A stretch of DNA of 64,000 nucleotides. It comes from Acutalibacter sp. GTDB lineage: Bacteria; Bacillota; Clostridia; Oscillospirales; Acutalibacteraceae. A program made the position numbers and the translations under genes. The notes beneath the pieces are model-generated. The model did not search any database. It saw nothing but the letters and a program-made list of their open reading frames with translations, and was not told the origin of the DNA. The stretch covers positions 1 through 64,000 of the forward strand of contig JAFLRP010000129.1 in assembly GCA_022511515.1 (NCBI GenBank), written 5' to 3'. Below, one piece after another: positions 2,353-24,441 of this stretch (position 1 is its first letter; each line of letters opens with the position of its first letter).

Positions 2353-4818
2353 TCATATATTTCGCAATTCTTCCAGTAATCGGAGAAGCAGGCTTCCCGT
2401 GCCCACATTGTAACCCGCGCAGCCGTACAGCCCGTTTCCCTGCCGGTCGGCAAGGAGAATCAGGGGCAGCTTGTCCGGCTCAACGAACATTCTCCGCGCC
2501 AGCATGGAGACGGTGTCCCGAAAATCCCCCTGCCACAAGTGATGATTCGGAAGCAGGGCGAGGGCCTTTTGCAGGGTGGGGTCTTGCTCCTGCTCCGCGC
2601 TTACTAAAATGAAATGCAGCCCGCAGTTCCATTGGGAGAACGATACCGCCGCTTCCCGGAGCTCGTTCAAGATGTGCTCGGTGGGCTCGCGGCCGACCTC
2701 CAGCCAGAACAAGAGGGAGATCGGGTGCCGCTCCAGCAGCTTTGCGCTGAGGATTTCCCGGCCCTCCCGGTCTTGCAGGGAAAAGGGCGGTAAAGCCCGG
2801 GCCGTCAAAAAGTCGGTATTTTTTCCTTGCCGGAAATTCAAATCTATCTGCCGTATCTCTCCCGCACACAAAGAAAATTCCAACTGCCTTGCCAACTGAT
2901 TGCCGTTTGGCAGCCGATTGGCGGTCAGCACCCGGTATGTTCCGGGCGGCAGAGAAAAGGTCAGGCTTTCCCCCGCCGGAATTTTTTCCCCGCTGATGGG
3001 GATTTCCCGCCCGGCTTCCAAACGAGTAAGGGAAAGATTTTGGAAAAAGGAAGCCTCCTGCCCCGCCGGGGCGGAGAGAAGCAGTGTTCCCCGTTCTGTT
3101 TTTCCGTCGGCGGCATAAAAATCACCGTCACGGTAGTATTCCGGCGAACCGTCCGCAGGCGATAGCCGGGCGGGAATGCCCATGCTCCTGCACAGCGCGC
3201 AGAACAGCACGGCCTTTCCGGTTTGTGAGGACGCGCCTGTCCGCAGCACTGCCCCGGGAGAAGCCGGCAGCGCGGGATAATCTTCCCGTTCCCGGACATT
3301 TTTCTTGATCCAATCCCAAATGCTTGCCGGATCTTCCCGGAATTTTTCCTGTTCCTCCGGGGAAAAAGCGGCAGAAAAATTTTCCCGCCACGGGCGCAAG
3401 GGCTCCAACCCAATTCGGGGACAAAGGAGCGCGGAAGAAAAGAGTTCCGGCGGGAAGTCCCGCTCCCATCGAAATGCCGGGAGACTGTCAAGGAGCACGT
3501 CCCGGGGCAACTCGACCGCCTGATCCTTTTCGGTGAGAGTTTCAAAAATTCTTTTCTCTTGTTCCGAGAGAATCTGTTTCTCTTCCGCCTGCAGCCGGGC
3601 CGCTTTCTGAGCCCGCAATTTTCCTGCGGCGTCCAGCCATTCCCGGCGTCTTTTTTGCTGTTCGGGGGAAAGCGGGGCAGGGTATCCGTCAGCGCCTGCA
3701 GGAGAGACAAAATCAAAGTCTGTCCAATCAGTTTTTTGATCTGCCATTTCCTGTAACATCAGCGTGACTTTTTGGGTCTCCCCCACATGGAAAAGAGTTT
3801 CTGCTCTGTCTTTGCCGTAAGCTGCCGAGACTTTCACACTGCCCAGTCCCAGCCGAAGTTTTACCTTGCCGCCCTGATCGGTTTTCAGGACGGCGATTGC
3901 AGAGAAATACGCCATATTGAGCAGGGAAAAAGTCACGTCAACACCTGCGGCAGGCCGCCCGGATTTTTCCACTACAGTGACCTCTATCTCCGCCGTTTCC
4001 GCATACCTCGACGTGACGGCTTCATATACCACGCCCTGCTCCGTCCACAGATTTGCAGGCTCGGTATCCGGGAACAGAAAAGAAAAATCCTCTTTATTGC
4101 CCGATGCAAAAGTTCTCGAGCGGATCATCATAGCCCGGGCGGCAGCGGCGGTAAACCAGCCTCTGTCCAGCTCCGGCTCCGGCTCGCAAGCCCCCAGATA
4201 CCGCCAATTTTCGCCGTCGAACACCTCCACCCAGGCGTGATTGTCGTCGCAGTGGGACCACCAGGGCACATAGACCTGCCGGGCACAAATTCCCACGCTG
4301 CGCAGAGCGTTCACGGCGAAGGTGGATTCCTCTCCGCAGCGCCCGTACCCGCAGCGGTACACAGACAGTGCGGAAGCCGTCCTGTCGTCTGTGGAGCGGT
4401 AGGTGACCTCTTCGGCACACCAGCGGTTGACCTCCAATATGGCGTCACGCAGGGAAAGATTCCGCACTCTGTCTGCAAGTTTTTCATAAAAGAAGCCCCG
4501 GCAGTCGGACAATTCTTCTGTATTGATGCGGGGATAGAGTACGCCTGTGAGAAACAGATGTTCCGGCAAAGCGGCGCACCAGTGGAATTCTTTTCGCACT
4601 CGCAAGGCGTGCCGTACCGTGTGCAAAAACAGGGACAGGTCGTAGTCCGCAAAATCGGATAAGGGCATGGTGGCAAAGACGAAGCGAAGATATTTCGCTT
4701 CCTCCGCTGTACCTTGCCTCAACAACTGTTCCGCTTGCTCAACCATTTCTCCCAGCGTCTCCCGGCGCTTCTCCCAAAGGTGCGACCTGTATTGTTCCAT
4801 TTGCTCAGAAAAACTCAT
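2353..4818 (-). CDS. Large transglutaminase-like protein with C-terminal thioredoxin-like domain
   Basis: YGRCGEESTFAVNALRSVGICARQVYVPWWSHCDDNHAWVEV is a transglutaminase core; a second, degenerate TG-like segment (TGKAVLFCALCRSMGIPARL); thioredoxin-fold-like C-terminus. Confidence 0.8.
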   Translation of the reverse strand: MSFSEQMEQYRSHLWEKRRETLGEMVEQAEQLLRQGTAEEAKYLRFVFATMPLSDFADYDLSLFLHTVRHALRVRKEFHWCAALPEHLFLTGVLYPRINTEELSDCRGFFYEKLADRVRNLSLRDAILEVNRWCAEEVTYRSTDDRTASALSVYRCGYGRCGEESTFAVNALRSVGICARQVYVPWWSHCDDNHAWVEVFDGENWRYLGACEPEPELDRGWFTAAAARAMMIRSRTFASGNKEDFSFLFPDTEPANLWTEQGVVYEAVTSRYAETAEIEVTVVEKSGRPAAGVDVTFSLLNMAYFSAIAVLKTDQGGKVKLRLGLGSVKVSAAYGKDRAETLFHVGETQKVTLMLQEMADQKTDWTDFDFVSPAGADGYPAPLSPEQQKRRREWLDAAGKLRAQKAARLQAEEKQILSEQEKRIFETLTEKDQAVELPRDVLLDSLPAFRWERDFPPELFSSALLCPRIGLEPLRPWRENFSAAFSPEEQEKFREDPASIWDWIKKNVREREDYPALPASPGAVLRTGASSQTGKAVLFCALCRSMGIPARLSPADGSPEYYRDGDFYAADGKTERGTLLLSAPAGQEASFFQNLSLTRLEAGREIPISGEKIPAGESLTFSLPPGTYRVLTANRLPNGNQLARQLEFSLCAGEIRQIDLNFRQGKNTDFLTARALPPFSLQDREGREILSAKLLERHPISLLFWLEVGREPTEHILNELREAAVSFSQWNCGLHFILVSAEQEQDPTLQKALALLPNHHLWQGDFRDTVSMLARRMFVEPDKLPLILLADRQGNGLYGCAGYNVGTGSLLLRLLEELRNI

Positions 4819-5564
4819 GCTCTGTCCAATTCCTTCCGGGCCTTGCGGATGTTTTCCTCTGAAGTGCGCCAGATTTCATATTCACTGAGACCGGGCAAGC
4901 CCATATTGACTCCCGCCTTTCGGTAGACCATGCCGCTTTCCAGCACTTCCTTGCCGCTCATGTGAAAGCTCCCCGCCTGAGGGATTTCCTCCCGCACTTT
5001 GCGGATAACTTCCGCGTTCACCCCCGCGCCCAAAAGAAGTTCCACTTCCCCCGCTCCGGCAAACAATTCTTTTAAGAGTTTGAGCCCTTCCACACAAGAG
5101 GGTGCTTGCCCGGAGGTGAGAATACTGTCCACGCCCCATTCCCGGCAGTTTTTGAGCGCCGCAAAGGGGTCCTTGCACACATCAAAGGCCCGATGCAGAG
5201 CAAACCTCTTTCCATGGCTGTGGGCAAGAACAATAAGTTGTTCCATGCGGGGACCGTCCAGTTCCCCCTCGGCAGTCAAAAAACCGCTGACAATGGCGTC
5301 CGCCCCGGCATCCAGCAGGGCTTCTCCATCTTCCAAGATGAGAGAAATTTCCCGCTCTGTGTAAAGGAAATCCCCGAATCTGGGGCGCAGAAGGGCATGG
5401 ACCGGCAGTCCCGTTTCCCGTTTCACCGCTTTCAGCAGCGAAAGAGACGGGGTGGTGCCGCCGATGACCAAATTGGCGCAGAGCTCCAGCCGGTCAGCGC
5501 CGCCGGCTTTCGCCGCCAGCGCCGATTCCACGCTGTCCACACAGACTTCCAAAACGTTTTTCAT
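4815..5564 (-). CDS. cutC: CutC family protein
   Basis: MKNVLEVCVDSVESALAAKAGGADRLELCANLVIGGTTPS...; 4-nt overlap with the upstream part of the downstream gene. Confidence 0.92.
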   Translation of the reverse strand: MKNVLEVCVDSVESALAAKAGGADRLELCANLVIGGTTPSLSLLKAVKRETGLPVHALLRPRFGDFLYTEREISLILEDGEALLDAGADAIVSGFLTAEGELDGPRMEQLIVLAHSHGKRFALHRAFDVCKDPFAALKNCREWGVDSILTSGQAPSCVEGLKLLKELFAGAGEVELLLGAGVNAEVIRKVREEIPQAGSFHMSGKEVLESGMVYRKAGVNMGLPGLSEYEIWRTSEENIRKARKELDRA

Positions 5565-5580
5565 CTTGGTATTTCCTTTG

Positions 5581-6900
5581 TTACTCTTTTAACGTGATTT
5601 CCAGCACGGTGTCCACCGGGTCGGGCAGAACGGGATTCGCCCCCAAATCGGCAAAGACGATATCCGGGTAGTTGTCGTAGATCCAGCTCTTGGCGATGGG
5701 CGCTTCTGCGCCGGTGGCCAGCCAGCGGATGCAGTCCACTTCCTCCCGGCGGAGACCCATCAGAGGCATGCAGCCCACGGTGTTTTCAAAGATGTGCCAG
5801 TAGAGCTTGTTTCCCTTTCGGGTGATCCTGCCCACGTCGGGCTTTTTCAGATTCGCCTTGCCGCAGCCGTAAATGCTGTCGGAATTTTTCTCCATCCATC
5901 CGCCGATATCGGCCAAAATGGACAGGGATTCCGGCGGGATATTGCCCTTTGCGTCGGGACCCACGTTCAAAAGGAGATTGCCGCCCTTGGACACGCACTC
6001 CACCAGCTTTTTGATGAGCATGGAGGAAGGTTTGAAAAATTTGTCGGTCTCGCAGTAGCCCCAGTTGTTGTTCATGGTGACGCAGGCTTCCCAAATGAGA
6101 TCGTTTCCGTTTTTGTCCTGCAGGCCGTCGGGGGGAATGATCTGCTCAGGGCTGGCGAAATCCCCGTGATAAGGGGTTGGATTTCCCTCCCACAGGGAGC
6201 CGAAGCCCTCGCCGCTGACTTCCAGCCGGTTGTCGATAATGACGCCGGGCTGGAGGGTGCGCACCATATCCACCAGCTCCGTGGCCCGCCAGGTCTCGCC
6301 CCGCATGGCGTTCTCTCCCTCGCCGTAGGAGAAATCGAACCAGAGGATGTCGATTTTCCCGTAATTGGTGCAGAGCTCCCGCACCTGATTGTGGAGGTAC
6401 TCCAAATAGCGGTCAAAATTTCTGTTTTCGTTGCCGTAGGCGGGATTGTCCCGCATGGGATGGTTCATGTCGCCGTAGTGGGGATAGTCGTCGTGGTACC
6501 AGTCCAGGAGAGAATAGTAGAATCCCACCTTCAACCCTTCCGCCCGGGCAGCTTCCACGTATTCGCCCACCAAATCCCGGCCGCACTTGGTGTTGGTGGA
6601 CTTGAAGTCCGTGTATTTGCTGTCGAAGAGGCAAAATCCGTCGTGGTGCTTGGCCGTCAGCACCATGTACTTCATGCCGGCGTTTTTGGCAGCTCTCGCC
6701 CATTTTTTCGGGTCATAGTCCACCGGGTTGAACTCCTCAAAATACCGCATGTAGTCCTCTTTGGGAATGCGCTCCTGACTGCGCACCCATTCCCCTCTGG
6801 CGGGGATGGCGTACAGACCCCAGTGAATGAACATGCCAAACCGCGCCTGTGTGTACCACTCCATGCGCTTTTCGTATTCCGCTCTGTTGAATTGATACAT
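5581..6900 (-). CDS. Alpha-L-fucosidase (GH29)
   Basis: WYTQARFGMFIHWGLYAIPARGEW, TAKHHDGFCLFDSKYTDF, DILWFDFSYGEG. Start chosen at MYQFNRAEY with a GGAG SD; the listed ORF is 5'-overextended. Confidence 0.9.
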   Translation of the reverse strand: MYQFNRAEYEKRMEWYTQARFGMFIHWGLYAIPARGEWVRSQERIPKEDYMRYFEEFNPVDYDPKKWARAAKNAGMKYMVLTAKHHDGFCLFDSKYTDFKSTNTKCGRDLVGEYVEAARAEGLKVGFYYSLLDWYHDDYPHYGDMNHPMRDNPAYGNENRNFDRYLEYLHNQVRELCTNYGKIDILWFDFSYGEGENAMRGETWRATELVDMVRTLQPGVIIDNRLEVSGEGFGSLWEGNPTPYHGDFASPEQIIPPDGLQDKNGNDLIWEACVTMNNNWGYCETDKFFKPSSMLIKKLVECVSKGGNLLLNVGPDAKGNIPPESLSILADIGGWMEKNSDSIYGCGKANLKKPDVGRITRKGNKLYWHIFENTVGCMPLMGLRREEVDCIRWLATGAEAPIAKSWIYDNYPDIVFADLGANPVLPDPVDTVLEITLKE

Positions 6901-22417: not shown

Positions 22418-22456
22418 GAAAGGGCGTGTCCTCGACAATGAGGTCACGCCTTTTTC
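22418..22456 (-). terminator. Terminator of the blaI-blaR1-lipoprotein operon
   Basis: aaagggcgtgtcctcgacaatgaggtcacgccttttt hairpin. Confidence 0.7.
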
Positions 22457-22466
22457 AAATCTCATT

Positions 22467-22841
22467 TCAGTGATGGCTGCCGCTGTTGTGCTGCTGTTCC
22501 TTGTGGCTGCTTTCCGCCGTGTGGCCGCTGTGGTGATGGCTTGCTTCCGTGCAGTCCAGGGAGCAGTTGTGATAGTGGTCGTAGTCCGTACAGTCTGCCG
22601 GACAATGGTGGAAATGGGTCTCGTCCGTGCAGTTTTTGTCTGTGCAGCCCATACTGTTTAGAAAGGCCACGGTGATTTCATCGTGATGGGACTGGGAGGA
22701 CACATCGGAAAGTTCGGACTGTGCGGAGCTGCCCGGTGTTTCGGCCCGGGAGGGAACCTCCGGGCTGTTTGGAATATTTGCCGTACAGCCTGTCATCAGC
22801 AGCAAAAGAACCAATACGACAATAGAATAATAATTTTTCAT
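22467..22841 (-). CDS. His/Cys-rich repeat lipoprotein, candidate metal-binding
   Basis: Lipobox LLLLMTGC; three tandem units CTDKNCTDETHFHH / CPADCTDYDHYHN / CSLDCTEASHHHS; His-rich tail. Confidence 0.8.
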   Translation of the reverse strand: MKNYYSIVVLVLLLLMTGCTANIPNSPEVPSRAETPGSSAQSELSDVSSQSHHDEITVAFLNSMGCTDKNCTDETHFHHCPADCTDYDHYHNCSLDCTEASHHHSGHTAESSHKEQQHNSGSHH

Positions 22842-22873
22842 GTTCTACCTCCATTTTCCTCCTGTTATCGGTT

Positions 22874-23998
22874 TCAGTGATGCGCATCAACGTGGTGGCC
22901 GGAGCTGTGACGGCTGCCCGTGCCGCCCACAGTCTGGACAGGGTGCTGAGAGCTTGTCTTTTCGCTGTCGGAATCTTCCTCGGGTAAAATTTCACTGGTG
23001 TCCGGGGCAGGGTCTATCAACACGTCCTCCGGCGAAACAGGGGGAACGACGGTATAGTACTCGTTTTTCGGCACGGTCATCAGGCAAAGTACTGCGGCAG
23101 CAGCGGCCGTAATTGCCAGCAGGGTGACCCACTTCGCCGGCTTTTGATACTCCATCACGTTCTTGATGCGATGTTTTACGCCGATCTCTCCAAAAGCCAG
23201 CGGACAGGCGGCGATCCCCTGACGGCGAGCCGCACAGCGGAGAAGGGCCTCCGCATAGGCTCTGCGCTCCTCCTTTTCCAGCCCCCGGATGACCCTCTCG
23301 TCGCAGGCCAGCTCCATATCCCTGCACAGCAATCCGTTAGCCACCCAAATCAGCGGATGGAACCAATAAACTGCCAGCAGGACAAATCCCAGCAGCTTCC
23401 ACCAGTGATCTTTTCGGCGGATATGGGCTCTTTCATGGGCGATGACGTGGTCTCTGTCTGCCTCCGCCAGAGAGTAGGGCAGATAGATCGTCGGCCGGAA
23501 AATGCCCAGCACAAAGGGAGAATCCACCCTTTCGCTCTGCTTGATGTTGTCCCGCAGCAGCGTGGCCGTGGCGACGCGGCGTTTCAACAGCAGATAACGG
23601 ATGATTCCGTAGAGCAGTATGAGGGCAGCCCCTACCGCCCACAGCCGGGAAAGGACAAACGACCACACTTGGGCGGGGTTCACGCTGTCGCCGGGAGCGG
23701 GAGACAGTGCGCCTGAGAGAATAGGATTGACCAGCCGATCCACGGTGCCGATTCCGCTGTGGATTTCCGGGGAAGCTGCGTAGAGAATCTCATGAGGCAG
23801 GGGCTGGGCGCTGGGGATCAGGCTCAGGGCGCTTTCCAAAGAGAAAGGACAGAGGAGACGCAGTCCAACAAGCCCCCACAAGATGCAGAAAATCCGCCTG
23901 GGCGCTTTCCGGAATACCAGCCGCATCAGGAGAACCGCCAAAATCAGCCAGCTTGCTGTAATGCTGAGGTTTACCAGATCCAAAAAGAACACTTCCAT
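22874..23998 (-). CDS. BlaR1/MecR1-type M56 membrane metalloprotease with short His-rich C-terminal tail
   Basis: VIAHERAHIRRKDHWWK (HExxH), multiple TM segments, ELACDERVIRGLEKEERRAYAEALL; tail SRHSSGHHVDAHH; no penicillin-binding sensor domain. Confidence 0.88.
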   Translation of the reverse strand: MEVFFLDLVNLSITASWLILAVLLMRLVFRKAPRRIFCILWGLVGLRLLCPFSLESALSLIPSAQPLPHEILYAASPEIHSGIGTVDRLVNPILSGALSPAPGDSVNPAQVWSFVLSRLWAVGAALILLYGIIRYLLLKRRVATATLLRDNIKQSERVDSPFVLGIFRPTIYLPYSLAEADRDHVIAHERAHIRRKDHWWKLLGFVLLAVYWFHPLIWVANGLLCRDMELACDERVIRGLEKEERRAYAEALLRCAARRQGIAACPLAFGEIGVKHRIKNVMEYQKPAKWVTLLAITAAAAAVLCLMTVPKNEYYTVVPPVSPEDVLIDPAPDTSEILPEEDSDSEKTSSQHPVQTVGGTGSRHSSGHHVDAHH

Positions 23999-24009
23999 GG
24001 TCTTCCCCC

Positions 24010-24360
24010 CTATCGCTCCAACATGCGGAGGATCTCCTTGACCTCGTCCTCAGACAGTTTCTGACGGCGGGCAAAAGCGGCAACAAAGGCCGGCAGAGAA
24101 CCCTCAAAGGTCTTTTCCAGCATCTCATCCATTTGGGCCACCTGAATGTCCTCTTTGCTGAACAGGGATGTGACCGTGGCGTTTTCGTTTTTCACCACGC
24201 CCCTGTCGGAAAGGCGGCGGATCACCGTGAAGGTGGTAGTCCTGCTCCAGCCCAATTCCTCTTTACAGATTTTGGCCAGTTGGGTGCTGTTGATTGGCTC
24301 ATGTTTCCACAAGATCAGGCAAAACCGGTATTCGCTTTCAAAGACTTTCGGTGATTCCAT
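24010..24360 (-). CDS. BlaI/MecI/CopY family transcriptional repressor
   Basis: ILWKHEPINSTQLAKICKEELGWSRTTTFTVIRRLSDRGVVKNEN: winged HTH of BlaI type. Confidence 0.9.
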   Translation of the reverse strand: MESPKVFESEYRFCLILWKHEPINSTQLAKICKEELGWSRTTTFTVIRRLSDRGVVKNENATVTSLFSKEDIQVAQMDEMLEKTFEGSLPAFVAAFARRQKLSEDEVKEILRMLER

Positions 24361-24389
24361 AGCGCTTCCTCCCAGTGTTAAACGCTTGC

Positions 24390-24441
24390 GTCTAACGCGT
24401 TCGACTAAAATAAGTCTAACACATTAGACCTCATTTGTCAA
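24390..24441 (-). promoter_or_regulatory. Promoter and two palindromic operators of the blaI operon
   Basis: GTCTAACGCGTTCGAC (24390-24405) and GTCTAACACATTAGAC (24414-24429); minus strand TTGACA - 17 bp - TAGACT, with the second palindrome over the -10. Confidence 0.75.

Follow-up and report, generated by a model that had tools for sequence, protein, structure and literature searches.

Gut Clostridia commonly encode M56 proteases that lack a penicillin-binding domain, and few of these proteases have a known signal. The locus described here raises the question of what such a protease may read when it is encoded together with a BlaI-type repressor and a small His/Cys-repeat lipoprotein. It lies in an Acutalibacter sp. 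genome (assembly GCA_022511515.1), within the 64,000-nucleotide stretch of contig JAFLRP010000129.1 (positions 1 to 64,000) that was analysed as a whole and is referred to below as the window.

The blaI–M56–lipoprotein unit occupies positions 22467-24441 on the minus strand. The blaI gene (24010-24360, minus) encodes a 116-aa winged-helix repressor and is followed after 11 bp by the gene of a 374-aa BlaR1-type membrane zinc protease (22874-23998, minus; Pfam Peptidase_M56, 2.5e-57) and, after a further gap of 32 bp, by the gene of a 124-aa His/Cys-repeat lipoprotein (22467-22841, minus). Each of the three is preceded by a G-rich ribosome site. The domains, the short gaps and the shared promoter bear out the proposal of the sequence-only reading that blaI, an M56 protease with a HERAH motif and a small lipoprotein form one operon. 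A stable hairpin (22419-22454, minus; -22 kcal/mol and z -3.5 for a 71-nt stretch) is located 3' of the lipoprotein gene and is a possible terminator; a strong T run is absent after it on the minus strand. The GC content across the locus (0.48-0.59) is ordinary. A Pfam search identified the immediate neighbours of the triad as mrp/NBP35 and rsgA, in agreement with the earlier statement that no beta-lactamase is adjacent.

The repressor belongs to the BlaI/MecI family by its match to Pfam Penicillinase_R (6.9e-22) and to MecI in the PDB (1.4e-07). BlaR1 is known to cleave its repressor at a site with Phe at P1' (PMC9834060), and in an alignment with the PDB MecI and BlaI sequences F96 of the window BlaI falls on F102 of the N101-F102 cleavage site, so that it is the predicted P1' Phe. 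The operon promoter, TTGACA-17-TAGACT (24413-24441, minus), has the same layout as five other blaI promoters of the group and is accompanied by two dyads of the form GTC(T/G)AA-N4-TTAGAC upstream of blaI. Dyad 1, GTCTAATGTGTTAGAC (24414-24429, unstranded), overlaps the -10 element and dyad 2, GTCGAACGCGTTAGAC (24390-24405, unstranded), lies downstream of it. Such dyads at blaI's own promoter are conserved in the other triads described below. Judging from this layout, two BlaI dimers bound to the paired operators would repress the operon; the BlaI proteins of Clostridium thermocellum are described as recognizing inverted repeats of GTCTAT that accommodate four protomers (PMC8457756). Exact matches to the operator occurred in the 2.4-Mb genome at this locus only, and the operator search revealed no metal-transport gene under its control in that genome. 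The only other near match, a single site with 1 mismatch, adjoins a mobile element, recognized by visual inspection from its MazF/PemK-like and integrase genes. It was attributed to chance, since a reversed control pattern matched 10-11 times per strand.

The core of the M56 protease resembles that of S. aureus BlaR1 at the sequence level, and in it the H188ERAH192, D197, E229LACD233 and Y248 motifs were recognized, with H188, E189, H192, D197, E229, D233 and Y248 invariant in 21 sequences. The equivalents of the BlaR1 catalytic motifs HEXXH, EXXXD, Asp210 and Tyr261 (PMC9834060) are all intact. All six PDB matches with E <0.001 obtained with Foldseek were S. aureus BlaR1 (probability 1.00), with TM-scores of just 0.38-0.41 by query length. 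The AF2 model has a core pLDDT of about 90, whereas residues 314-374 (22877-23059, minus), the putative extracytoplasmic tail examined below by alignments and shuffles, are disordered with pLDDT <50. By analogy with the topology of BlaR1 and from the predicted core fold, the active site would face the cytosol and the tail the outside of the cell. No Pfam domain was found after residue 280, and the NCBIfam BlaR1 model scored 90.9 bits against a cutoff of 400. Pfam and the sequence therefore agree with the initial description of a BlaR1-like protein that lacks the penicillin-binding domain and ends in HSSGHHVDAHH; a tail of about 60 residues stands in place of that domain. Relatives of the protease from the same bacterial family (44-57% identity) have C-terminal regions of ~60-630 residues without a His/Cys motif. 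The very diverse C-terminal regions of the M56 proteins in relatives L007-L035 and L046-L054 form a large set of candidate sensors. One extracytoplasmic stretch, PFGLTY...GKxVxSxYD...VYENGxxxGLR, is common to M56 proteins of two different lineages (L138, 1769-3985, minus; L184, 1372-3702, minus; L185, 2374-4608, plus); it has no Pfam match and may be another sensor domain.

The lipoprotein has a signal peptide with the lipobox MTGC (lipid-attachment Cys19) and a His-rich tail. Between them the family alignment places a module, C66-H104 (22530-22646, minus), composed of three C-x(3,4)-C-x4-H-x-H units, CTDKNCTDETHFH, CPADCTDYDHYH and CSLDCTEASHHH, which upholds the earlier account of three ~13-residue His/Cys repeats followed by a His-rich tail. 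Pfam, NCBIfam and PDB provided no usable match. An NCBIfam BSAP5b hit (E 0.01, 15 bits against a cutoff of 380) was rejected because it covers residues 1-63, outside the module, and a match in G082 was rejected as a flavodoxin-like protein similar only at the N-terminal signal region. AF2 gave no confident fold (pLDDT 54), which is compatible with either a metal-organised or a disordered segment and is no evidence for metal. Bacterial metallothioneins and His-rich metal-binding lipoproteins likewise carry dense Cys/His ligands and have no predicted fold without metal. The window lipoprotein differs from both groups in the strict 13-residue period of its C-x3-C-x4-HxH units, in its surface anchor, in its link to a protease/repressor pair and in the lack of a match in the three databases.

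A scan for the tandem pattern C-x3-C-x4-HxH-x-C-x3-C-x4-HxH across 84,980 species (257 Gb) returned 41 loci, of which 31 belong to one family and 10 are low-complexity or out-of-frame reads; about 0.5 would be expected by chance, as estimated with equal base frequencies. All 31 family loci are in Clostridia, nearly all in metagenome-assembled genomes (MAGs). Viral contigs contained no match to a stricter pattern and, for a looser one, two low-complexity or out-of-frame reads. The family consensus is MGC-x4-C-T-D-x2-HxH-x-C-x3-C-x4-HxH-x-C-x3-C-x4-HxH, carried on a secreted protein or on an M56 C-terminus, and the window's module, one among 46 distinct modules, fits it. C8, H13 and H15 of the first repeat, positions that the search did not require, are invariant in 46/46 modules; the residue between the two His varies (H in 32, Y in 12, F in 1 and C in 1). 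Judged from these ligands, the three C2H2 sets of the module could hold Zn, Ni, Co or Cu. A related motif, CTVxGCT-x4-HxH, was matched once in 391 Clostridia genomes, by a small secreted protein unrelated to M56, so that its occurrence on M56 proteins was not confirmed. A further type of secreted His/Cys protein was noted in the window's own bacterial family: a frame in L231 (G219; 1393-1686, plus) encodes 98 residues with CTVSGCTLTDVHQH and a His-rich tail.

The connection of the module with signalling comes from its fusions. In two Lachnospiraceae loci an M56 domain is followed by a region of ~300 residues and then by the module, in two copies in L184 and in one copy in L185, and in a Subdoligranulum locus (L186) by a short linker and one module. 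The L186 protein ends in SGHSSGHHADAHHS, resembling the HSSGHHVDAHH end of the window M56. All three fused genes are placed directly downstream of a blaI gene, the fused modules sit at the extracellular C-terminus of M56, i.e. in the sensor position of BlaR1, and the module was fused to no protein other than M56 in the loci examined. Since the module elsewhere forms the extracytoplasmic end of M56 proteins encoded behind blaI, its association with BlaI/M56 systems, read at first from a single operon, holds beyond this locus. In L185 the fused M56 gene is immediately followed, in tandem, by a closely related second M56 gene (4613-6055, plus) that lacks the His/Cys module.

In a tree of 65 M56 cores the operon-type proteins, together with that of G696, clustered in a single group with good support, well away from the fused proteins. 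The AU test rejected the placement of every module-linked M56 protein in a single clade (p 1.8e-56) as well as a clade uniting the operon type with L184/L185 (p 6e-36); the fused types were not separated from each other (p 0.195). The rejection of a single origin implies that the module and M56 have been linked at least twice. Two independent linkages among ~32 loci would arise by chance with a probability of roughly 5e-4; this estimate takes a rough density of three blaI loci in 3,000 genes, and the loci are not fully independent.

The search for the triad across genomes, envisaged by the sequence-only reading as a check, yielded four more genomes, all Lachnospiraceae (L071, L087, L090 and L140), with the gene order blaI–M56–lipoprotein and paired operators at the promoter. 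Their BlaI proteins are 82-86% identical to that of the window and their M56 proteins about 62%; because the order and the paired operators are shared at ~62% M56 identity, the unit has been kept over a long divergence. One of the Lachnospiraceae triads has, ~2 kb upstream and on the opposite strand, a CDF cation efflux gene (L190, 1270-2496, minus; Cation_efflux 4e-49). In a sample of 300 genomes from the bacterial family of the window, a close lipoprotein was found in one (G288, the same genome as G696), and no blaI or M56 gene stood beside mrp in 27 other genomes of the same genus, so the operon is sporadic. In these 27 genomes rsgA was not found next to mrp either, so that they do not provide a clean empty site for an insertion at mrp. 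The operon has perhaps moved horizontally between Oscillospirales and Lachnospirales.

The short M56 tail with a His-rich end is present in the window, L071, L090 and L140; the M56 reading frame of L087 is broken by unresolved bases and was left outside the comparison. Aligned with the lipoprotein of its own triad, the tail beat all 500 shuffles in each of L071, L090 and L140, clearly in L071 (score 95, shuffle maximum 66) and barely in L140 (76 against 75). The window tail shows a weak similarity to the lipoprotein of its own triad, with 64 of 500 shuffles scoring as well, and matches the lipoproteins of the other triads with 0-3 of 500 shuffles as good. In the Lachnospiraceae triads the tail can be read as a degenerate copy of the end of the module.

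We give an even chance to the reading that the locus is an autoregulated BlaI/BlaR1-type operon whose input is a Cys/His metal-ligand module, with the lipoprotein as metal sensor or buffer. A metal at the cell surface is the probable signal of the switch, as suggested by relatives in which the signalling protease itself bears these repeats, by the ligand chemistry and by a precedent in Synechocystis, where, according to the parts of the PetR/PetP reports available, copper activates a BlaR1-type protease and the BlaI-type regulator is degraded (PMC7896320, PMC13421787). The best reading of the locus is that the module is here mostly detached onto the lipoprotein and that the output is the operon itself. 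The M56 protease would cross the membrane, its zinc active site facing the cytosol and its His-rich tail the outside, and the lipoprotein on the outer face would carry the complete module. A change in the metal status of the lipoprotein would, through the lipoprotein and the M56 tail, shift the protease to its active state; the active protease would cleave BlaI, derepression would provide more lipoprotein, and the extra lipoprotein would buffer the metal and close the loop. The repressor has Cys14 and Cys32 as its only cysteines, both in the N-terminal domain, lacks the C-terminal CxC of the CopY type and scored 38.8 against TIGR02698 (CopY; cutoff 121.95). Without the CopY CxC motifs, a metal effect, if any, most likely enters through the protease.

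A second reading, unlikely in our view though the best placed of the alternatives, makes the lipoprotein an output only: M56 would use its own membrane loops to sense something else (cell-wall damage, a peptide, membrane stress), and the lipoprotein, once induced, would form a protective coat or a sink for metal at the surface. The lipoprotein gene is the third and induced one, the usual place of an effector, the protease tail is short, and the family consists mostly of orphan lipoproteins with ordinary-looking promoters. About 20 members are orphans without blaI, M56 or operator, a few of them at contig ends, and inspection of their promoters by eye did not reveal a shared metal-regulator box. 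The lipoprotein can therefore act without BlaR1, and a sensor role cannot be universal. In G696 and G697 an orphan lipoprotein coexists with a BlaI, encoded elsewhere in the genome, that is 84% identical to the window's; the G696 M56 has a different C-terminal domain. Against an output-only role speak the three M56 receptors behind blaI that contain the module themselves and the Lachnospiraceae triad tails resembling the module's end. A GNAT acetyltransferase gene lies directly downstream of the orphan lipoprotein gene in three genomes (L194, 3822-4652, plus; L195, 4713-5507, plus, where Pfam was applied; L197, 4874-5659, plus).

The six Cys of each module are invariant in the 46-module alignment and the organisms are taken to be anaerobes, so the module could also be pictured as a thiol/redox sensor in which the protease is triggered by extracellular oxidation of Cys or by disulphide exchange there, and not by metal occupancy as such. 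This is improbable, as a thiol switch would need neither the HxH pairs, which are equally invariant, nor the His-rich tails.

In three related Oscillospiraceae MAGs (L075, 1474-7058, minus; L093, 2611-8000, minus; L095, 4832-7999, minus) the module gene is the last of a peptide/nickel-family ABC importer operon, 56-71 bases after the ATPase genes; a substrate-binding protein and permeases are also encoded in L075 and L093. These three loci also count in favour of the metal-ligand reading preferred above. Their arrangement would suit a metal-acquisition factor that feeds an importer and is induced by BlaI/M56 upon metal starvation, a role that we consider distinctly improbable: the importer is absent beside the window triad and the four other triads, and the best matches of the importer permeases and of one ATPase, although to nickel models, were below curated cutoffs. 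The family resemblance to BlaI and BlaR1 might also suggest that the pair is an ordinary one that responds to beta-lactams and that the lipoprotein gene is an unrelated passenger; this is very unlikely given the missing penicillin-binding domain, the BlaR1 model score of 90.9 bits against 400, the lack of an adjacent beta-lactamase and a passenger that is conserved in place and fused elsewhere.

The metal-reading operon favoured here shares with BlaI/BlaR1 and MecI/MecR1 of Staphylococcus and Bacillus licheniformis a winged-helix repressor with dyad operators and an M56 zinc protease with HEXXH, EXXXD, Asp and Tyr motifs, an extracytoplasmic C-terminus and a matching fold. It differs in that a short His-rich tail and a separate His/Cys lipoprotein replace the class-D-like penicillin-binding sensor, and in that neither a beta-lactamase nor a PBP2a gene is adjacent in the window. 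PetR/PetP, likened here by description and not by comparison of sequences, resembles it in being a metal-responsive BlaI/BlaR1-type pair; the system differs in controlling plastocyanin and cytochrome c6, and the available text of these reports mentions no His/Cys lipoprotein. The copper repressors CopY/TcrY are metal-responsive BlaI-like winged-helix proteins with CxC motifs (PMC5772342) and have TACAnnTGTA operators in place of the window's GTCTAA-N4-TTAGAC; unlike in CopY, metal would have to act in the window through M56 and not on the repressor. BlaI_0696 and BlaI_1845 of C. thermocellum are encoded in small autoregulatory operons with blaR1 for which, in the part of the report available, the authors assume a beta-lactam response and describe no His/Cys module (PMC8457756).

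BlaI and M56 are known parts, and what would be new is the Cys/His module as input. Neither such a module as an input of BlaI/BlaR1, detached or fused, nor the triad was found described in the open-access literature searched, which leaves most subscription papers outside. More tentatively, a portable Cys/His metal-binding module may represent a new class of BlaI/BlaR1 input that makes a surface metal sensor in gut Clostridia, occurring alone, in the operon or fused; in the operon form the protease would retain no more than a decayed remnant of the module, and the signal would come from the separate, self-induced lipoprotein. The locus and its fused relatives give the signal of one M56 protease a concrete, testable identity, a Cys/His ligand module, and the short operators of the locus suit a reporter. 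If the operon is metal-responsive, it would place a further BlaI/BlaR1-type system of this kind beside the cyanobacterial PetR/PetP, and labelling such pairs as beta-lactam resistance can then mislead.
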